Source: Phycisphaerales bacterium
Lineage (GTDB): Bacteria; Planctomycetota; Phycisphaerae; Phycisphaerales; UBA1924
Direction of reading: 5' to 3'
DNA length: 64,000 bases
Assembly (NCBI GenBank): GCA_020847535.1
Contig: JADLBU010000016.1
Coordinates: 62,001 to 126,000, forward strand
Below the pieces are notes generated by a model. The model saw nothing but the letters and a program-made list of their open reading frames with translations, had not been told where the DNA came from and did no database searches. A program made the position numbers and the translations under genes. Positions 1,970 to 19,589 of the stretch are shown one piece after another; within the stretch, counting starts at the first letter, position 1; each line of letters starts with the position of its first letter.

Positions 1970-2124
1970 ACCCGTTCCAGGGTGTGTGCCCGCGACGGCG
2001 ATCGGTCTTAGCGCGATCTGAATCACCGGGACGCTCAGGACCGGACACCGACTCTCTACCCTGATCCCATCGGATGGAAGTCGCCGGATGCACCGGCATG
2101 TTTGGTAATTACTAAGGAATACTC

Positions 2125-3180
2125 ATGGCTGCTCTGCGATCCTGTCTCGCGTCCGTTCTGATGTCGGCGCTGGTTTGCACCGTTGGTCTCGCACCCACCG
2201 CCGCGGCTCAGGACAAGGTTGTCAAGATCGATGGGTCGAGCACCGTGTTCCCCGTGACCGAGGCCGTCGCCGAGGAGTTCCAGGCCGCCCAGAAGGGCGC
2301 TGTCAAGGTGACGGTCGGCATCTCCGGAACCGGCGGAGGCTTCAAGAAATTTGTTCGCGGCGAGATCGACATCGCCGATGCCTCGCGGCCGATCTCGGCC
2401 GAGGAGATGCTCGCCGCCAAGGAAGGCGGCATCGAGTACATCGAACTGCCGATCTGCTTTGACGCCCTCACCGTCGCGATCAACCCCCGGAACACCTGGT
2501 GCGACTCGATGACCGTCGAGGAGCTCAAGAAGCTCTGGGAGCCCGGTGCCCAAGGCAAGGTCACCAAGTGGAGCCAGATCCGCGCGGGCTGGCCCGATGA
2601 GAAGATCGAACTCTTCGGCGCTGGGACCGATTCGGGCACCTTCGATTACTTCACCGAGGCCGTGGTCGGCAAGGCCAAGAGCAGCCGCGGGGATTACACC
2701 GCGTCCGAGGACGACAACGTCCTGGTCCGGGGTATCGAGGGCAACAGGTTTGCCCTCGGCTACATCCCATATGCGTACTTCGCCCCGCACGCCAAGCGGA
2801 TGAAGGCTGTCAAGGTTGACTGGGAGAAGGATGCGCTCCCCGCCATGGAGCCGTCCATGGACAACGTGATCGCCGGCAAGTACAACCCGCTGTCCCGGCC
2901 CCTGTTCATCTACATCAACAAGAAGGCCCTCGTCACCAAGCCGGAGGTCAAGGCATTCGCGGAGTTCTACGTTCAGAACGTCGCCGAGCTCGCCGAGGAG
3001 GTCAAGTACCTGCCGCTGCCCAGCATGGCGTACCAGACCTGCGGCGATCGCCTGGCGTCGCTCAAGACTGGCACCGCCTTCGGCGGTCACACCGAGGTCG
3101 GGCTCCCCGTCGAAGAGATCATGAAGCGCGAGCCTGTCAACGAGCCCCGCAAGGCTCCCAAGCAGGAAGAGAAGAAGTAG
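2125..3180 (+). CDS. pstS: Phosphate ABC transporter substrate-binding protein PstS
   Basis: A 351-residue periplasmic protein. Residues 1 to about 28 form a Sec signal peptide ending in AAAQ. The mature N-terminus IDGSSTVFPVTEAVAEEF and the segment GISGTGGGFKKFVRGEIDIA are the phosphate-binding loops of the PstS family (the SST and SGTGGG turns contact phosphate), and GAGTDSGTFDYF is the second lobe signature. The C-terminal 15 residues are charged and Lys/Glu-rich. It is the first gene of pstSCAB and is separated from pstC by a strong hairpin, which usually lets the binding protein be made in excess over the membrane parts. I could not confirm a Pho box upstream of the ATG. No phoU or phoBR lies in the window. 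Confidence 0.95.
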   Translation: MAALRSCLASVLMSALVCTVGLAPTAAAQDKVVKIDGSSTVFPVTEAVAEEFQAAQKGAVKVTVGISGTGGGFKKFVRGEIDIADASRPISAEEMLAAKEGGIEYIELPICFDALTVAINPRNTWCDSMTVEELKKLWEPGAQGKVTKWSQIRAGWPDEKIELFGAGTDSGTFDYFTEAVVGKAKSSRGDYTASEDDNVLVRGIEGNRFALGYIPYAYFAPHAKRMKAVKVDWEKDALPAMEPSMDNVIAGKYNPLSRPLFIYINKKALVTKPEVKAFAEFYVQNVAELAEEVKYLPLPSMAYQTCGDRLASLKTGTAFGGHTEVGLPVEEIMKREPVNEPRKAPKQEEKK

Positions 3181-3192
3181 AATGCAGACCCG

Positions 3193-3218
3193 CCCGGCCT
3201 TCCGACAGGAAGGCCGGG
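3193..3218 (+). terminator. pstS-pstC intergenic stem-loop (attenuator or mRNA stabiliser)
   Basis: A perfect 11-bp stem, CCCGGCCTTCC (3193-3203) with GGAAGGCCGGG (3208-3218), closes a 4-base loop GACA. It begins 13 bases after the pstS stop and ends 16 bases before the pstC ATG. The T-run after it is weak (AACTTTGACTT), so it is more likely a leaky terminator or 3'-end protector than a full stop. Confidence 0.7.
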
Positions 3219-3234
3219 AACTTTGACTTCGCAC

Positions 3235-4203
3235 ATGTCCACGATTCTGTCCGATAATCCCGTCAGCGGCGGAATCGCGGGCTCTCGCAACGGCGGCCTG
3301 CTGCCGCCGCTGCGTTCGCGGTCCCTTCTGGGACGACTGGCGGAACGCTTCATCGAATCCGGTCTGCTGCTCGCCGCGGCATTCTCCGTCCTGATTACCG
3401 GTGGCATCGTCTTTGTCCTCGTCAGCGAGTCGCTCCCGTTCTTCCGACATGTCTCAGCCCGTGAGTTTCTCACCGATCGCCTGTGGACCCCGATGTTCGC
3501 CGATCCCCACCACGGGATCATGCCGCTCGTTGCCGGCACTCTCACAACCACGGCGGTCGCCCTGCTCGTCGCGATGCCGGTCGGCACCCTGATCGCCGTC
3601 TGGCTGAGCGAGTTTGCCCCCTCTCGCCTCCGCGAAGTACTGAAGCCCGCCCTCGAGCTGCTCGCGGCGGTTCCCACCGTCGTCTACGGCTACTTCGCGG
3701 TGGACTTCGTCACGCCGGCGCTGCAGGCCTTCATCCCCGATCTCCCGACATTCAACATGCTCGGGCCCGGGATCGTCATGGGGGTCATGATCATCCCCTA
3801 CGTGAGCTCCCTGAGCGAGGATGCCATCCGCGCGGTGCCCATGCTGCTCCGGGAAGGGTCCTATGCCCTCGGCGCCGGCAAGTTCACGACCGCGATGCGT
3901 GTCGTCTATCCTGCCGCCTTCTCCGGGATCGCATCCGCGTACGTCTTGGCGATCTCGCGGGCAGTCGGCGAGACGATGATTGTCGCGATCGCCGCGGGGC
4001 AGCAGCCCAACCTGTCGTTCAATCCTCTCGACCCGGCGGCGACCATCACCGCGTTCATCGTTCAGGTGAGCCTCGGGGACCTGCCGCACGGGAGCATCGG
4101 ATACCAGTCGATCTTCGCCGCGGGCGTCACGTTGTTCGTGATGACGCTGGGGTTCAATATCATCGGTGCCGTGATGCGGCGCCGGTATCGGCAGGCGTAC
4201 TAA
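3235..4203 (+). CDS. pstC: Phosphate ABC transporter permease PstC
   Basis: A 322-residue inner-membrane permease. The ATG at 3235 is preferred; a TTG at 3223 in the same frame would add four residues. The first membrane helix lies near residues 35-60. The family signature runs through PHHGIMPLVAGTLTTTAVALLVAMPVG, and the EAA-type coupling loop around REGSYALGAGKFTTAMRVVYPAAFSGI contacts the ATPase. ISRAVGETMIVAIAAGQQPN is typical of PstC. With PstA it forms the membrane channel of the high-affinity phosphate importer. pstA starts 3 bases after its stop. Confidence 0.93.
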   Translation: MSTILSDNPVSGGIAGSRNGGLLPPLRSRSLLGRLAERFIESGLLLAAAFSVLITGGIVFVLVSESLPFFRHVSAREFLTDRLWTPMFADPHHGIMPLVAGTLTTTAVALLVAMPVGTLIAVWLSEFAPSRLREVLKPALELLAAVPTVVYGYFAVDFVTPALQAFIPDLPTFNMLGPGIVMGVMIIPYVSSLSEDAIRAVPMLLREGSYALGAGKFTTAMRVVYPAAFSGIASAYVLAISRAVGETMIVAIAAGQQPNLSFNPLDPAATITAFIVQVSLGDLPHGSIGYQSIFAAGVTLFVMTLGFNIIGAVMRRRYRQAY

Positions 4204-4206
4204 CGC

Positions 4207-5121
4207 ATGATCGTCACCGATCGATTCATCGCCAGGACGCGGCTTCAGGACCGGGCTTTCTCGGTGCTCGGGGCCACGCTGACGGTCGGCGCCATGCTCT
4301 TCCTGGGCATCCTGCTCTTTGACCTGGCCCGGGATGGGCTGTCGCGCATCGATTGGCAGTTCCTTACATCCTTCCCATCGCGCCGGCCCGGGATGGCGGG
4401 CGTTCTCTCCGCGTGGGTCGGTTCGCTCCTCATCATGCTCGTCACGGCCGTGACGGCGATCCCTCTGGGGATCGCGGCCGGCGTCTATCTCGAGGAGTAC
4501 GCCCGCAAGAACTGGTTCGCGACGGCGATCGAGATCAACATCACCAACCTGGCGGGTGTTCCCTCGATCATCTTCGGGCTGATGGCCCTGGGCCTGTTCG
4601 TGTTCCGGTTCAATTTCGGCCAGAGCATCCTTGCCGGCGGCCTGACGCTCGGCTGCCTCATCTTGCCGATCGTCATTGTCTCGACTCGCGAGGCGCTGCG
4701 GACCATCCCACGCGGCATGCGCGAGGCCGCCTACGCACTCGGCGCCACGCGCTGGCAGGTCGCTCGCCATCACCTTCTCCCCTATTCGCTGCCGGGGATC
4801 GCGACGGGTGTCATCATCGCGATCTCGCGCGCCATCGGGGAGACCGCGCCCCTCATCACCATCGGTGCGCTCACCTTCATCGCCTTCCTCCCGCCCGCGC
4901 CCGTCACTCTCGACCCCGAGTTTGCCGTCCAGCCGCTGAAGTGGGTGTGGTCCCCGTTCACCGTGCTTCCGATCCAGATGTTCAACTGGGTTTCTCGACC
5001 TGGTGATGACTTCCTGCGGAACGCCGCCGCGACCGGCATCATCCTGATTGGCCTCACGCTTACCATGAACGCCGTCGCCGTGGTTCTCAGGTACCGGATG
5101 CGCAGGAGAATCAAATGGTGA
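4207..5121 (+). CDS. pstA: Phosphate ABC transporter permease PstA
   Basis: A 304-residue permease with about six membrane helices. The PstA signatures are [44 protein letters not shown], and the coupling loop [28 protein letters not shown] followed by [16 protein letters not shown]. It pairs with PstC in the phosphate importer. The gene sits 3 bases after pstC, and its TGA stop overlaps the pstB start (ATGGTGA), which implies coupled translation. Confidence 0.94.
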
Positions 5122-6008
5122 CCAGCGCAGCACCCCGACACGCCGCGCCTCCAGTCCACGCCGGACCAGCACGCATGACCGCCACTCCACCGCCCATCCC
5201 GACGTTGCTGGACTCCGACGTTGTTCGACCAGCGCCGCCGGCCTCCCGCGCGATCAAGGCCCAGGTCGAGAACTTCAGCTTCTTCTACAGCACGGTGCAG
5301 GCGCTCGCCGACGTCAGCCTCCCCTTCCGGGAGCGGGCGATCACTGCGTTGATCGGCCCCTCGGGCTGCGGAAAGACGACGCTGCTGCGGTGCTTCAACC
5401 GCATGCACGATCTCTACCCCGGCAACCGCTACGTCGGCCGGATCCTGCTCCACCCCGACAATCTCAACATCGTCGCCCGCGAGGTCGATCCGATCTCGCT
5501 GCGGATGCGCATCAGCATGGTGTTCCAGAAGCCCAATCCCTTCCCGAAGTCCATCTTCGAGAATGTCGCGTACGGGCTCCGCCTTCGCGGCATCCGCTCC
5601 CGATCCGAGCTTGAAGGCCGCATCCAGGTCGCTCTTGAGGATGCCGCGCTGTGGGGCGAGGTGAAGGACCGCCTCCGCAAGCCGGCGTATGACCTCTCCG
5701 GCGGACAGCAGCAGCGGCTGTGCATCGCCCGCGCGCTTGCCAACGAGCCCGAGGTGCTGCTGCTCGATGAACCGACCTCAGCCCTCGATCCGATCGCCAC
5801 CTCGCGCATCGAAGACCTCATCGTCGAGCTCAAGGAACGCGTCACGATCGCGATCGTCACCCACAACATGCAGCAGGCCGCCCGAATCAGCGACTACACC
5901 GCGTTCATGTACCTGGGCAAGCTGATCGAGTACGGGGCGACCGCGGAGGTCTTCCAGAATCCCAAGTGCAAGGAAACGGAAGACTATGTGACGGGTCGTT
6001 TTGGATAG
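5115..6008 (+). CDS. pstB: Phosphate ABC transporter ATPase PstB
   Basis: A 297-residue ABC ATPase. Walker [10 protein letters not shown] lies near residues 81-89, PstB-specific RCFNRMHDL follows, then the signature [16 protein letters not shown], Walker [13 protein letters not shown] and H-loop [10 protein letters not shown]. It energises phosphate import through PstCA. The start overlaps pstA by 7 bp. An extra stretch of about 40 Ala/Pro-rich residues precedes the ABC fold, so the ATG at 5175 is a possible alternative. The operon stops here without phoU, unlike the common pstSCAB-phoU arrangement. Confidence 0.95.
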
Positions 6009-10454: not shown

Positions 10455-12215
10455 TTACCTGTCCACCGTCGGCATCGGCGGCTTGAACGTGTGGAGCGTC
10501 GTGGATCCGACGCGGAACTGGGCGAGCTTGACGCCCTTGCTGACATCGAAGATGAGCTTGAGCTTCTGGTCCTGCCGTGTCTGGCTGAGCATCGGGATGT
10601 CGGTGATGTTGCGCAGCGGCTGACTGCGGTTGAAGTGTACGGTGATGTGCCTCTCGTGCTCCTCGTAGACGTACCCGATCGGCTCGTAGGCCTGGCCGTC
10701 GGTGTCCACGAGCTGGGCGGCCATCTGCGAGTTGCTGGCGATCGACACCTTCCCGACCCAGCTCAGCGGCTGCCCATTGGTGACATCGATCTGCACGATG
10801 ACGATGTCGGGCTTGGTCTGGTACTTCTCGATCCTGAGTTCCTTCGGCGCTCCGGAGCCCTTGGCGATCAGGGACTTCTCGTAGATCTCGTGTCCCTCGA
10901 CGACATTGCTTCCATCGACGCGCATCGACCGCTCGATGCCGCTTTGGATGACAAAGCCCATCTGGGCCGTGATCCGCACACCCAGCTCATCCTCGCTGAT
11001 CTGGGCATTGGCAGCGCCGCGGGGCTTGTTGTGCTCGGTGATCGAGCTTCCCTCGGAGGGCTCCCGGAAGATCGCGCCCCCGTCAACGGCCTGGTCACGC
11101 TCCGCAGCGCTCGCGAACACCGTCGGCTTCTTGTCCGCCGGGATCGCCACCCGGGAGTTCTTGACGTACAGCGCGATCGGCTCGTACCCAGGGGGCACCG
11201 GGAACTCAAAGCCCATCTGCGTCTCGGAGGCGCCGCCCACCGAGGAGATGAACGTCTCGGGGGCATCGAAGCGGAACCGGGCGTACATGCGCTTTTCGGT
11301 CGCCGCCTGGCTCAGGATCGTGATCGGGTAGACCGTCTTGTACTCGGGCTCCTCGCCCGCCTTTTCCAGCAGCAGGCGTACCTGGCCGTTGCCGATCACG
11401 ACCGAGCCCGATCGCTCACGGGCGCTGGGCTGGAAGTTGAGCACGAACCCCTCCAGCCGCGTGCCGGACGGGAAGGCCTCGCCCTCCGTGTCCTTCACAT
11501 CCTGCGGCTGCCTGTTCCACTCATCGGCGAGCAGGTCTCGGAACTGGGTGTCCTTGCCGCCCACCGTGAAGCGAGTCCAGACGTCAAAGTCCTTGATGTT
11601 GATCGTGTTGCGGGCCTTGCCATCTCCGTAGCTGATCCGCATCGTCCCCGGCACGTAGACCAGGTCGGGATACCAGCGGGCCAGCGGATCGGCGCTCGCC
11701 AGTGTGCCGTTGCTGACGAACTTGTACAGCCCGGCCGTCATCTTGTCGACCGGGAACATCAGTGACGACTCGACCTGCAAGGTGCCGTTGGCCTGCTGCT
11801 CGATGGGTGTGTAGCCCAGGAAGTCGCGATCCACGCGCAGGAAGCCCATGCTGATGATCAGGATCCCTGCCGTGATGATCCCCGACATTGCCCCACACAC
11901 ACCGCCGCCCACGGCGTTGGTGACGGCGTCGAACTTCACGTTCGCGGGGGTGCACTTATCCACGATCGCCCGCAGGATCGCCATCGACACCGCAAACGGC
12001 AGCGCCAGTGAGAAAGCCCACGTGGCGCTCCCCCAGGCATCGTTGCCGTTGAGCTTGCCCAGCACCAGATAGGCGATCGGCTCCCAGACCGCAAACGCGA
12101 TCGCCCCGGCGGCGATGCAGCAGATCAGGTTGAGGAACGCGGAGAAGAAGCCGCGAGCAAGCCAGACCCAGCCCAGGAGGGCGACGATGGCCAAGGCGAT
12201 TCCGCTGACGATCAT
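10455..12215 (-). CDS. CvpA-family membrane protein with large C-terminal extension
   Basis: A 586-residue protein. The first 165 residues carry about four membrane helices and read like the CvpA (colicin V production) family: LLGWVWLARGFFSAFLNLICC, then FDAVTNAVGGGVCGAMSGIITAGILI. The remaining 420 residues are soluble, beta-rich and not recognised (for example FVLNFQPSARERSGSVVIGNG and GYVYEEHERHITVHFN). CvpA proteins link envelope stress and export in other bacteria, but the role of this fused form is unknown. It is the last gene of a minus-strand set with pilT and a GspE-like gene. A second, smaller CvpA-like gene lies at 24597. Confidence 0.7.
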   Translation of the reverse strand: MIVSGIALAIVALLGWVWLARGFFSAFLNLICCIAAGAIAFAVWEPIAYLVLGKLNGNDAWGSATWAFSLALPFAVSMAILRAIVDKCTPANVKFDAVTNAVGGGVCGAMSGIITAGILIISMGFLRVDRDFLGYTPIEQQANGTLQVESSLMFPVDKMTAGLYKFVSNGTLASADPLARWYPDLVYVPGTMRISYGDGKARNTINIKDFDVWTRFTVGGKDTQFRDLLADEWNRQPQDVKDTEGEAFPSGTRLEGFVLNFQPSARERSGSVVIGNGQVRLLLEKAGEEPEYKTVYPITILSQAATEKRMYARFRFDAPETFISSVGGASETQMGFEFPVPPGYEPIALYVKNSRVAIPADKKPTVFASAAERDQAVDGGAIFREPSEGSSITEHNKPRGAANAQISEDELGVRITAQMGFVIQSGIERSMRVDGSNVVEGHEIYEKSLIAKGSGAPKELRIEKYQTKPDIVIVQIDVTNGQPLSWVGKVSIASNSQMAAQLVDTDGQAYEPIGYVYEEHERHITVHFNRSQPLRNITDIPMLSQTRQDQKLKLIFDVSKGVKLAQFRVGSTTLHTFKPPMPTVDR

Positions 12216-12348: not shown

Positions 12349-14268
12349 TTATCCGCCCTTGCCCGCCGCCGGGGCCGCCTGCTTCGGGGTTGCCGCCTGA
12401 GGCTTGCCGCCTGCCGGGTTGGCTCCGGGGCCCGGCTTGGCACCGCCCCCCCCGCCGCCTCCTGCCCCGCCACCGGGGCCGGGCTTGCCGCCCTGAGGCC
12501 CGCCGGCTCCGCCTCCGCCACCCCCACCGGCCGCAGGAGCGCCGCCCGGAGCCCCCGCCGGAGCCTGGCCGTCGGTGGTTGCCCGCACCACCTCTTCGAT
12601 GCTCGTGATGCCATCCAGGGCGTGCCGGAGGGCGGCCTGCTGCAAGGTGGGGAGCTGCTTCTTCTTGAACTCGGCCTTGACGGCGTTCCAGTCTCCCTTC
12701 TTCAGGAGATCCCGCATCGCCGCATCGATCTGGTAGAGCTCGAAGAACCCGATCTGGCCGACATAGCCCACGCCCGAGCACATGCCGCAGGTCTGCTCCT
12801 TGTCCTTGACCAGGACCACGCCGCCTTTCTTGTAGAGCTGCTTGACCTTGTCCGCGGGCAAGCCGAACTTCTTGAGCATGTCCGGCGCCGGCACGTACGC
12901 CTGCCGGCACTGGGTGCATAGCCTGCGCATCACGCGACCCGTCACCACGCCGCGGACCCCCGGCATCGCCGTCTCAAGGTCCCCGACGAGCTTGGCCCAT
13001 CCCTGCAGAGCGCCGATCGCGTTGTCGGCCTTGAACGATGGATAGATCCGGCTGCGCTCCTGATCGGCGCGGCAGATCTCCTTGCAGGTGTTCTGGTCGG
13101 GGATCTCGGCGACCCCGACGACATCGGGATCTCGCCGCAGGATCGAGCGCACCAGCGTGGAGAACTCCGGTCCCTCGGCGAACGGATCCCACTTGTTCTG
13201 GCGGATGCCTTCGAGGTCGTCCTGCTGATCGATCTCGATGCTCTGCACGTTGTTGGTGTAGGCATCGTGCATCTTGAGGAGGGTGTAGAAGATCGTCGTG
13301 CGGCCGCCATCGGGTGGCGTGCATACCAGCACGGTGCCCTTCTTCTCCTCGACGATCGCCTTGAGTTCATCGAGCTGCTTGTCCACCAGGCCCAGGTCCT
13401 CGGGCTTGCGACGGACGGCCTTTTCAGGGTCAAACAGCAGCGTCAGACGCATGCCGCCCTGGACGCCGGCGGCAATCACGCGGAGCTTCTTCTTGAGCTC
13501 CCCCTTCTCGATGTTGATGTCGGCGGTGAGCTTCTTGCGGCGATCGGCGATGTCGAGCTTGCCTGCGGCCTTCCAGAAATCGACGATCTTGATCGCATCG
13601 GGTGCCGGGTGCGTCTGGGCGACCTGCTTGACGCCGTCGACGACCAAGACCTCGCCGTAGGCGTTGTCCTTGCCCGTGGGCGCCAGATCGACCTGCGATC
13701 CGCGGGCGACGACGCTGCGCAGCACCAGCCCCTCGGCCGCGACCCGCACCGCCAGTTCCGGGCTCTCGGCGGCCGGCGCGGCGATGACCGCCTTGTCCGG
13801 TCCCTTGATCGTGAGCTCGGCCTTGCCGGTCTGGGACAGATCCTTCTTCTGCTTCTTGGCCTCGGCCGATCGCCCGAAGATCTCCTTGCCCAGGTTCAAA
13901 CGCAGGGTCTCGGGCACCAGCTCGCTCTTGTTCGCCGAGCTGACAAACCAGAAGATATCGATCGACAGGATCGCCATCACGGCCGTCAGCCCTGCCCAGA
14001 ACGCAAGCTCACCCCGCAGCGGCATGAGCAGCCCCACGGCAAGCGCGACCATGCCGAAGACGAGGTGAATCATGTTCCACTGCTCGCGCTTGAGGTAGAA
14101 GCGGGCGGCGAACTTGTCGAAGATCGTCGAGACCATCCACGCCCAGAAGACGATCGGGATGAGCAGGACGACGGGCTTCCAGAACGAAACCAGGATGAGG
14201 CCCTCGGCAAGCTGCAGCGAGGGCACGCCCGGAATGGGCTGGTAGGAGTCGAGCACGCGGATCTCCAC
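12349..14268 (-). CDS. Membrane-anchored GspE/PilB-like protein with degenerate nucleotide site
   Basis: A 639-residue protein starting at GTG. Residues about 24-110 contain three or four membrane helices, unusual for a secretion ATPase. From about residue 270 the sequence follows the GspE/PulE fold: MRLTLLFDPE, then a Walker A position reading TPPDGGRTT (about 314-322) where active members have GPTGSGKTT, a Walker B-like DPDVVGVAEIPDQNT, and a switch region lacking the usual GH. The zinc-type pair CTQC...CGMC (about 450-496) and the domain end TLQQAALRHALDGITSIEEVVRAT are kept. The last 70 residues are Gly/Pro/Ala-rich. Fold and context with pilT suggest a pilus or type II secretion part, probably a non-hydrolysing relative; loss of activity is inferred. 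Confidence 0.75.
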   Translation of the reverse strand: MEIRVLDSYQPIPGVPSLQLAEGLILVSFWKPVVLLIPIVFWAWMVSTIFDKFAARFYLKREQWNMIHLVFGMVALAVGLLMPLRGELAFWAGLTAVMAILSIDIFWFVSSANKSELVPETLRLNLGKEIFGRSAEAKKQKKDLSQTGKAELTIKGPDKAVIAAPAAESPELAVRVAAEGLVLRSVVARGSQVDLAPTGKDNAYGEVLVVDGVKQVAQTHPAPDAIKIVDFWKAAGKLDIADRRKKLTADINIEKGELKKKLRVIAAGVQGGMRLTLLFDPEKAVRRKPEDLGLVDKQLDELKAIVEEKKGTVLVCTPPDGGRTTIFYTLLKMHDAYTNNVQSIEIDQQDDLEGIRQNKWDPFAEGPEFSTLVRSILRRDPDVVGVAEIPDQNTCKEICRADQERSRIYPSFKADNAIGALQGWAKLVGDLETAMPGVRGVVTGRVMRRLCTQCRQAYVPAPDMLKKFGLPADKVKQLYKKGGVVLVKDKEQTCGMCSGVGYVGQIGFFELYQIDAAMRDLLKKGDWNAVKAEFKKKQLPTLQQAALRHALDGITSIEEVVRATTDGQAPAGAPGGAPAAGGGGGGGAGGPQGGKPGPGGGAGGGGGGGAKPGPGANPAGGKPQAATPKQAAPAAGKGG

Positions 14269-14486: not shown

Positions 14487-15644
14487 TCAGCCCAGCTTCT
14501 TGAGCTTCATCATCAGTTCATCGACGTTGGGAGACGACTCGATCGCCGTCCGCATGTGGATGAACTCGGTCTCGACCAGGTTCACCAGGCTCTCGTTGAA
14601 GTCGATCATGCCCGTCTGGCGAGCCTCGATGCTCTTGAGGTACTCGCGAAGCTCACCCTCCTTGCCTTCGAGGATGTGCTTGCGGACGACGGTGTTGTTG
14701 ATGAGGATCTCCAGGGCCGGGATACGCGCGATGTTCGCGTGCAGTGTCGGCAGCAGCTTCTGGTAGACGAACCCGCGCATCTGGTAGCCCAGGATTCGCC
14801 GGACCTGATCGACTTCCTCGGCCTCGAACAGTCCGTAGATACGGCTGAACGTCTGCGTCGTTGATGAGGCGTGGATGGTTCCGTACACAAGGTGGCCCGT
14901 CTCGGCGGCGTGCAGGGCGGCCTCGAACGTCTCCTTGTCGCGCATTTCACCGACCAGCACGACGTCGGGGTTCTCTCGCACCAGGGCACGCAGGGCGATC
15001 TTGAAGTCCAGGCAGTCGATACCGATCTCGCGCTGGTTGATGGTCGCCTTCTTGTCCTTGAACAGGTACTCGATCGGATCTTCGATCGTCACGATATGCA
15101 CGGGCTTGCGTTCGTTCACGTAATCGAGCATGGCCGCGATCGTGGTGGACTTGCCCGACCCCGTGACGCCGCAGAGCAGCACGATGCCCTGGGGCTGCAT
15201 GGCGATCTCCGCCATGCTCTGGGGCAGGTACAGCTCCTCGAACTTTCGGATCTTGGATGAGATCAGTCGGGCCGCGACAGAGAGCTTGCCCTTGGCCATG
15301 AACAGGTTCACGCGGAAGCGCGTGTTGTCATCGAAGTCGTAGGCGAAGTCGCAGGAGCCGAACTTGTGCAGATCCTCGAGCTGCTCCTCGGAGAGGATCG
15401 CCCGGGCGATCTCCCAGAACTCATCCGAGGTCACCGGCTCGCAGTCCAGCGGCTTGAGAGCGCCGCGCAGACGCAGCTTGGGCTGCGTCTCGGATTTCAT
15501 GATGAGGTCGGAGGCATCGAGCTTGATGCTCGCCTGGAGGAACTTACCCCAGCGAGTATCGAAGGGATCGCCCTTCCTCTTGGTGGGCAACGCAACATGG
15601 CCGACATGCTTTGCATCAGATTGGACATCGGTATCGACGCTCAT
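14487..15644 (-). CDS. pilT: Type IV pilus retraction / twitching ATPase PilT
   Basis: 385 residues from the ATG at 15644, a normal PilT length. A same-frame ATG at 15788 would add 48 low-complexity residues rich in Ser, Ala, Pro and Thr and looks less likely. Motifs are Walker A CGVTGSGKST, the Asp box VTIEDPIEYLF, Walker B NPDVVLVGEMRD, the His box TGHLVYGTIHASS, and the PilT-type end YLKSIEARQTGMIDFNESL. PilT is a cytoplasmic hexamer that powers pilus retraction. It is followed on the same strand, after 218 bases, by the degenerate GspE-like gene and then the CvpA-family gene. Confidence 0.92.
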   Translation of the reverse strand: MSVDTDVQSDAKHVGHVALPTKRKGDPFDTRWGKFLQASIKLDASDLIMKSETQPKLRLRGALKPLDCEPVTSDEFWEIARAILSEEQLEDLHKFGSCDFAYDFDDNTRFRVNLFMAKGKLSVAARLISSKIRKFEELYLPQSMAEIAMQPQGIVLLCGVTGSGKSTTIAAMLDYVNERKPVHIVTIEDPIEYLFKDKKATINQREIGIDCLDFKIALRALVRENPDVVLVGEMRDKETFEAALHAAETGHLVYGTIHASSTTQTFSRIYGLFEAEEVDQVRRILGYQMRGFVYQKLLPTLHANIARIPALEILINNTVVRKHILEGKEGELREYLKSIEARQTGMIDFNESLVNLVETEFIHMRTAIESSPNVDELMMKLKKLG

Positions 15645-15941
15645 GTTCTTCCGGCCCTCCCGGGAGACGGTCGGACCCGTCCCCGCCGAAGCGCTCGCGG
15701 ACGGACCCGAGGATGTGGGGGATGCATTAGAGGCGGTCGCTGGAGTCACAGAATAACCTCTGGGGGAGGGTTTGGCGAGCGGATTCACGGGGCCAGGGAC
15801 GATGCACCACCGGGGCGAGGTTGCTCACCCTGGCGGACGGATCGCAAACACGGCGTGCCCGCGGTTGGACGGGCGTATCGGATAATACGGCTGTGAATCC
15901 CCGGTGTTCCGAGGGGCGGGGGACATGGCCGATAATGGGAC

Positions 15942-18638: not shown

Positions 18639-19589
18639 TCACCCCCGCGGCGTTGAGCCCGAAGCCCGCTTCGCCAGCAGCGCCTCGCGATCCAGCCACC
18701 GCAGGATCTCAGTCCCCAGCGGTGTCAGCTCAAAGCTCACCTGCCAGTGCATCCGCCGCCGGGCATCGGACGATTGCAGCAGGCCCATTGTCTCCAGCCC
18801 CCACAGATCCTCGATCAGGGCCTCGGAGTTCTCGAAGCTCCCCAGATTGATCACATCCCCGACCGAGGCCTGAGATGCGAACACTCCGCCGAAGCGGGAG
18901 AAGATGCTCAGCAGTGTGCCGTCGTCTGCCGAAGCCCGAATCGTACCAAGCTCTTCGACAAGAGCCTGCCGTCGGGCCGCGCCGGGATCCGTGCTCGCCA
19001 GCGTCGCGTTCTCCCGCCGCAGCTTCTCGTTGTCCTGGCTCAGCCGCGCCAGCTCCTCCGAAACCTTCGCGCTCGCCGCCTCGCTCGCCGGCACCCACCC
19101 CGGCCGCGGATTGCTCGCGAACGCCTTGGTCAGCGCAATCGCAAACTCCCCACGCAGCTCGCTCGCCGTCTTCCAGAACGTCACCATCCGCGACTGGGCC
19201 TTGTTCCGGAACGCCGCGAGCCGCGTGATCTTCGTCGGATCGCTCTCGCGCCGATCTCCCGGCCACATCGCCGCCCGATCCAGCACGAACCCCAGCACCG
19301 GCACCCCGCGTTCCAGTGCGTAGTCGTATTCCTTCTCCGTGTAGCTGATCCCACCCTCCTCGGGGATCGTCGATCCGTACCGGTCGGCGAGCAGCAGCAC
19401 GTAATAGTCGCACTCATCGATCGTCCGGCGGATCACGTTCCACTGCGCAGAATCCCCAGCGCTGAACATCTCCATCCCGATCGGGATGTGACCCATCTCC
19501 AGGCACGCCATCACGATGTCCTGGCGTTCATCCTTGAGGTCTTCGTAAGTGCTGCTGATGAAGATCTGGAACTTGGTGCGTACCGCCAT
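18639..19589 (-). CDS. DUF4062 domain protein (TIR-like fold)
   Basis: 316 residues. The N-terminal 90 residues match DUF4062: KFQIFISSTYEDLKDERQDI, then MGHIPIGMEMFSAGDSAQW, IDECDYYVLLLADRYGS and GISYTEKEYDYALERGVPVLGF. The middle part (about 175-205) is predicted coiled coil, and the C-terminal 90 residues look like a winged-helix-type segment. DUF4062 is distantly related to TIR-like domains and is often joined to NTPase or effector modules in bacterial conflict proteins. Whether this copy acts in defence or signalling is unknown. It converges with purM, with a 13-base gap, and is divergent from the methyltransferase at 19676. Confidence 0.8.
   Translation of the reverse strand: MAVRTKFQIFISSTYEDLKDERQDIVMACLEMGHIPIGMEMFSAGDSAQWNVIRRTIDECDYYVLLLADRYGSTIPEEGGISYTEKEYDYALERGVPVLGFVLDRAAMWPGDRRESDPTKITRLAAFRNKAQSRMVTFWKTASELRGEFAIALTKAFASNPRPGWVPASEAASAKVSEELARLSQDNEKLRRENATLASTDPGAARRQALVEELGTIRASADDGTLLSIFSRFGGVFASQASVGDVINLGSFENSEALIEDLWGLETMGLLQSSDARRRMHWQVSFELTPLGTEILRWLDREALLAKRASGSTPRG

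Follow-up and report, generated by a model that had tools for sequence, protein, structure and literature searches.

The window analysed here, a stretch of 64,000 nucleotides from a Phycisphaerales bacterium, encodes a membrane-anchored pseudo-GspE/PilB of 639 amino acids with a T2SSE domain (12349..14268, minus strand, GTG start). As judged from sequence, its gene belongs to a conserved cassette, which consists of an intact PilT-family ATPase, an anchored GspE or pseudo-GspE and a CvpA-like protein, and the loss of its catalytic site is fixed across the class and is no local accident. We give a probability of about 0.5 to the reading that this protein descends from an active anchored GspE/PilB ancestor, is now fixed as a pseudo-ATPase and, together with the CvpA-like protein, serves as a membrane docking platform for a dedicated PilT.

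The Pfam T2SSE match covers aa 216-562 and scores 117.5 bits against a cut-off of 24.9, and is the weakest of the 14 T2SSE matches in the organism's own genome (4.94 Mb, 134 contigs). With the NCBIfam equivalog TIGR02533 the protein scores 145.2 bits, below the cut-off of 630.25, as do the active anchored relatives in loci L101, L105 and L108 (445-467 bits). The first-pass annotation had described a secretion-ATPase-like fold with its zinc motif kept, a broken Walker A, a lost His box and membrane helices at the N-terminus, and all four features were recognized again here. Walker A reads TPPDGGRTT (aa 317-325; 13294..13320, minus strand), with Arg323 in the position of the Lys, and the Asp box is EIDQQD where the canonical sequence is EDPVEY. 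In the former His box (aa 405-416; 13021..13056, minus strand) the canonical H406 and H413 are replaced by S and K, and in the Walker B region VRSILRRDPDVVGVAEIPD (aa 373-391; 13096..13152, minus strand) Glu388 is kept and the canonical Arg390 is Pro. All four cysteines of the tetracysteine zinc motif, C451-x2-C454 ... C494-x2-C497 (12778..12918, minus strand), are present.

The N-terminus contains three hydrophobic segments (aa 23-41, 66-84 and 88-106), and the structure model has three predicted transmembrane helices there (residues 30-56, 61-80 and 87-114; 13927..14181, minus strand), which replace the cytoplasmic N1 domain. Four of the five canonical GspE/PilB proteins of the same genome have no hydrophobic segment, and the fifth has one weak segment. 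The model (pLDDT 86.9) was built from an alignment of 67 rows taken from 66 of 80 named Phycisphaerales loci (L141-L220). Comparison of a predicted structure with GspE, a check proposed in the first pass, recovered the N2 domain and a C-terminal domain of the PilB/GspE type; the best matches in the structure search were PilF/PilB cores (5oiu_B, E-value 3.1e-31, target TM 0.86). On the strength of this match, the predicted fold is that of an extension-type ATPase in which a membrane anchor has taken the place of the soluble N1 domain.

Full-length orthologues were found in 57 of the 61 genomes of the same genus, family and order (the organism's own genome counted), with fragments in two more, and a match of at least 280 bits was present in 117 of the 120 genomes of the class sample. 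The set of 87 pseudo rows used below comprises 57 from the same order, 27 from other orders of the class (the loci read out of 98 matches) and three from families f88 and f97; left out were three fragments (L071-L073, of which L071 and L072 likewise have no Lys), the canonical ATPases of genomes G060 and G007 (L074 and L075) and a duplicate of L013 (L043). The P-loop Lys is absent from all 87 rows, its position being held by R (45 rows), L (17), V (8), G (4), I (3) and others. It is likewise absent from all 80 named loci (R 69, G 7, L 2, A 1 and S 1), which share 22 cores with the unnamed rows (L013-L070). Chance is excluded as an explanation, because none of the 87 orthologues has the Lys whereas it occurs in 122 of 122 rows of the neighbouring PilT.

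The erosion extends over the whole nucleotide site. When a position is called invariant if at least 93% of 15 active comparison rows share it, and lost if fewer than 85% of the pseudo rows do, 63 of the 88 invariant positions are lost (among them K323, D346, E349, R390, H406, H413 and the N2 arginines 207 and 209) and the other 25 are retained, as is the case for all four zinc Cys, the P-loop Gly322 and the Asp-box Glu345. Each zinc Cys is present in 85-86 of the 87 rows, and this retention in spite of the lost catalytic residues points to a structural role for the zinc motif in the pseudo-GspE. In PMC5061722, zinc coordination is described as essential for the activity of EpsE, and the motif as occurring in assembly, not retraction, ATPases. 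The dN/dS values of 0.04-0.18 (the 18 closest pairs listed) indicate that the pseudo-GspE is under purifying selection and not in decay. Thus the sequences support a pseudoenzyme in which the nucleotide site has eroded as a whole and the fold, the zinc domain and the anchor are maintained by selection, and the first-pass proposal of a pseudo-ATPase stands.

The view that the gene is a relic in decay, or that it reflects an error of sequencing or assembly, would have only the broken catalytic site to recommend it; against this are the open frame, the full-length orthologues and fragments counted above and the low dN/dS, which together rule it out, and we attach almost no probability to it. A second alternative is that the pseudo-GspE still binds nucleotide and serves as a sensor, or that its unusual P-loop even supports very slow ATP hydrolysis. 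Gly322 and Glu345 are kept in 87 of 87 pseudo rows, Thr/Ser324 in 86 and the Walker B Glu388 in 37, and the first three of these residues leave weak nucleotide binding possible. However, the Lys position is held by R, L, V, G, I and other residues, His413 remains in two rows and Asp346 in four, and most rows have lost the N2 arginines 207 and 209, so that we regard a sensor or slow ATPase as distinctly improbable.

Not all anchored relatives are inactive. The fusion was found both in Phycisphaerae and in further planctomycete families, in line with the search of other Planctomycetota suggested in the first pass, and 13 anchored rows in four other families (f47, f54, f71 and f68) have an intact P-loop, which rules out the proposition that every orthologue is inactive. 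In family f47 (seven rows, read from 12 matches) and family f54 (three rows), the anchored protein carries GPTGxGKS/T and EDPVEY or EDPIEY, together with GEIRD or GEVRD and the His box. The three remaining intact P-loops lie near high-scoring PilT genes (L233 and L237 in f71, and L235 in f68), and L235 has the complete cassette of PilT, active anchored GspE and CvpA-like protein; the other 17 of the 20 loci read around such PilT genes showed no anchored GspE neighbour. The phylum survey, which scored five candidates per genome, missed three anchored active GspE proteins as full-length, and all searches were confined to the window's own phylum.

In an IQ-TREE tree built without the motif columns, all anchored GspE proteins form one clade relative to five canonical ATPases of the organism's own genome (SH-aLRT 99). 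The class accounts for one clade of pseudo rows (98) and f88 with f97 for another (99), and the active forms are basal, so that the pseudo-GspE appears as a demoted ATPase; most simply, the sequences indicate descent from an active, membrane-anchored ATPase of the GspE/PilB type. At least one change of the active/pseudo label is required on this tree. The branch uniting the pseudo rows of the class with those of f88 and f97 has a support of only 39, and the alternative topology that places f47 and the class together is compatible with the data (p-AU 0.43). The FastTree supports of 0.986-0.989 for a single pseudo clade come from a weaker model in which three later active rows are absent, and carry little weight. 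The Lys may therefore have been lost once, or twice if f88 and f97 are separate from the class. The first-pass annotation had named orthologues with an intact Walker A as evidence that would overturn a pseudo-ATPase. Such orthologues do exist, but they belong to other families and show the ancestral state, and thus account for the origin of the pseudo-ATPase without speaking against it.

The gene reported as pilT in the first pass does adjoin the pseudo-GspE gene, 218 bp upstream (14487..15788, minus strand). Its product of 433 aa matches TIGR01420 with 376.4 bits (cut-off 319.1), and its catalytic motifs are all intact. Across the cassettes the Lys, the Walker B Glu, the Asp-box Glu and the His are present in 122 of 122 rows, a set that holds repeats (the 22 overlapping named and unnamed cores) and one non-cassette PilT (L121). 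The cassette PilT is a separate clade (support 0.93), to which three other PilT-like proteins of the same genome do not belong. In 58 of the 80 named loci it precedes the pseudo-GspE gene in the same orientation, at a distance of up to 500 bp in 51 and of 500-2500 bp in seven; in one it lies elsewhere in the locus, and in four a contig end cuts the upstream side short. The remaining 17 lack it although 1500 bp or more of upstream sequence is available, which counts against the platform reading. When nine genomes of the same family with no PilT in the short locus were searched, eight had a cassette-type PilT elsewhere (69-79% identity), which in two cases was on the contig of the cassette at a distance of a few kb; the search of the ninth (G034, 86% complete) gave none, which likewise counts against a platform. 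A PilT of at least 495 bits occurs in all 35 phylum-survey genomes with an anchored GspE and in about 20 of 211 others, a comparison of little weight since the profile was made partly from the same lineages. At L237 (6556-7689) the PilT gene next to an active anchored GspE is read as two neighbouring frames, owing to a frameshift, a stop or an assembly error.

The CvpA-like membrane protein encoded downstream (10455..12215, minus strand) has 586 aa, with four helices followed by a beta-rich domain. It scores 22.2 with Pfam Colicin_V, below the cut-off of 29.3, and short relatives in L108, L110 and L112 are above it. In other families the partner has about 185-235 aa (e.g. L108:4876-5433) as against about 590 aa in the same order, where the beta-rich domain is added. 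The model of the four helices and the beta-rich domain (pLDDT 91.2; alignment from 68 of 78 loci) gave no clear structural match in Foldseek, the one match with an E-value below 0.001 being to a plant vicilin (probability 0.21), and with VIA-align the best Z against solved structures was 4.6. The CvpA-like gene lies downstream in 78 of the 80 named loci, and the other two are contig ends. Among 40 far loci, scripted adjacency placed the CvpA-like gene next to the anchored GspE in 36 and PilT in 25; L138 and L139 were scored negative only because their stop-to-stop frames overlap, and in L112 a CvpA-family gene adjoins by Pfam although the script missed it. As the CvpA-like protein is the tighter neighbour, PilT may be the less essential partner.

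The first-pass suggestion that the protein belongs to a pilus or secretion system found no backing in its surroundings: clustering of the neighbours, judged from sequence, revealed no recurrent pilin, GspF/PilC or secretin gene beside the cassette among 120 loci. The other recurrent neighbours in these loci, judged by eye, are taxon-specific housekeeping genes. Elsewhere in the window are a DUF4062 protein (18639-19589, 107 bits) and two adjacent long ORFs of 464 and 578 aa (2056-5190, minus strand) with no Pfam match at an E-value of 1e-5. A single locus was seen with a further motor pair close to the cassette: in genome G126 (L117:11696-14000), a second GspE-like gene (216 bits) and a PilT-like gene after it are located some 2 kb away. 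Three loci entitled Leptolyngbya sp. PLA1, Cyanobacteria bacterium CYA and Isosphaera sp. WM.009 (L152, L187 and L192) have the cassette with identities in the Phycisphaerales range, and their titles look mislabelled.

This neighbourhood bears on three further readings. According to one, the protein is an inactive ring with a regulatory role in another machine of the cell, a type IV pilus or a type II secretion system; it might occupy GspF/PilC platforms, for instance, or signal while free of nucleotide, and the link to PilT would be incidental. Such machines are present elsewhere in the genome, where besides the T2SSE matches there are 14 T2SSF matches on seven open frames, on other contigs or more than 30 kb away on contig C16; moreover, according to PMC11656802, nucleotide-free PilB of Myxococcus is thought to signal to EPS production. 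Nevertheless, even in distant families the cassette comes with a PilT of its own clade and with its CvpA-like partner, and no pilus gene recurs beside it, so that a regulator of this kind seems unlikely. In another reading, PilT drives a membrane complex of the pseudo-GspE and the CvpA-like protein that acts on the envelope with no pilin. The three genes are indeed found together repeatedly, pilin, secretin and GspF genes are not among the recurrent neighbours, and the tightest partner has a large beta-rich domain predicted with high confidence; however, PilT could use the GspF-type platforms encoded elsewhere in the genome, and we hold this reading to be very doubtful. A more explicit version, to which we likewise give little credence, is a motor in which a PilT hexamer would work against a ring of pseudo-GspE and CvpA-like protein and move an extracytoplasmic domain, the second motor having been retired to a stator in Phycisphaerae and remaining active in other planctomycetes.

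For the docking platform, the argument is that an anchored protein which has lost its fuel-burning site, next to an intact motor, suggests from sequence a docking part rather than an engine. The pseudo-GspE, probably as a ring, and the CvpA-like protein would together make up a platform in the membrane on which the dedicated PilT-family ATPase is recruited and oriented, and all ATP hydrolysis would be carried out by PilT. GspL or PilM recruit soluble GspE/PilB, and the membrane anchor would stand in for this type of recruitment. The anchored ring may transmit the motion of PilT, either to the CvpA-like protein or to some platform whose genes lie elsewhere; what the motor moves would then be an envelope structure, by way of the CvpA-like protein, or a pilus platform. 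The closest experimental counterpart comes from V. cholerae (PMC6821130), where retraction persists through active PilU when PilT carries Walker A or B mutations, PilU requires the presence of PilT, and PilT and PilU bind one another, as the Walker mutants still do. PilT and PilU are separate homohexamers in this case, and a mixed ring thus has no precedent there. The signalling by nucleotide-free PilB in Myxococcus (PMC11656802) can be set beside it as another parallel.

The pseudo-GspE, then, represents a naturally fixed, class-wide pseudo-ATPase in the superfamily of pilus and secretion motors, with active anchored orthologues at hand for comparison. We found no earlier account of this cassette, or of a planctomycete GspE that is anchored or inactive, in the literature searched, from which subscription journals were mostly absent. 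The cassette offers a clean test case for the roles of a GspE/PilB ring apart from the burning of ATP, and for whether PilT-type motors can serve non-pilus structures. It also calls for caution, in that T2SSE matches in planctomycete genomes are not all secretion ATPases; the present protein, with its broken catalytic motifs and its NCBIfam scores below the cut-offs, should not be classed among them.

Among known systems, the CvpA family (colicin V production) resembles the downstream partner in the four-helix CvpA region, but the partner differs by about 430 extra residues, largely the beta-rich domain, and by its sub-cut-off score. With GspE/PilB the pseudo-GspE shares the N2 and C-terminal fold (5oiu and 5tsh, target TM up to 0.86), the tetracysteine zinc motif and the T2SSE domain. 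It differs from them in having three membrane helices in place of the soluble N1 domain, in the loss of the P-loop Lys, the Asp box and the His box, in scores far below the NCBIfam equivalog cut-offs and in having no GspF or pilin neighbour. The upstream partner is a member of the PilT/PilU group, in which the inactive PilT that works with an active PilU (PMC6821130) is a functional parallel. This situation is different from that of the pseudo-GspE, which belongs with PilB/GspE and has a zinc domain, and whose inactivity is natural and class-wide rather than a laboratory mutation.
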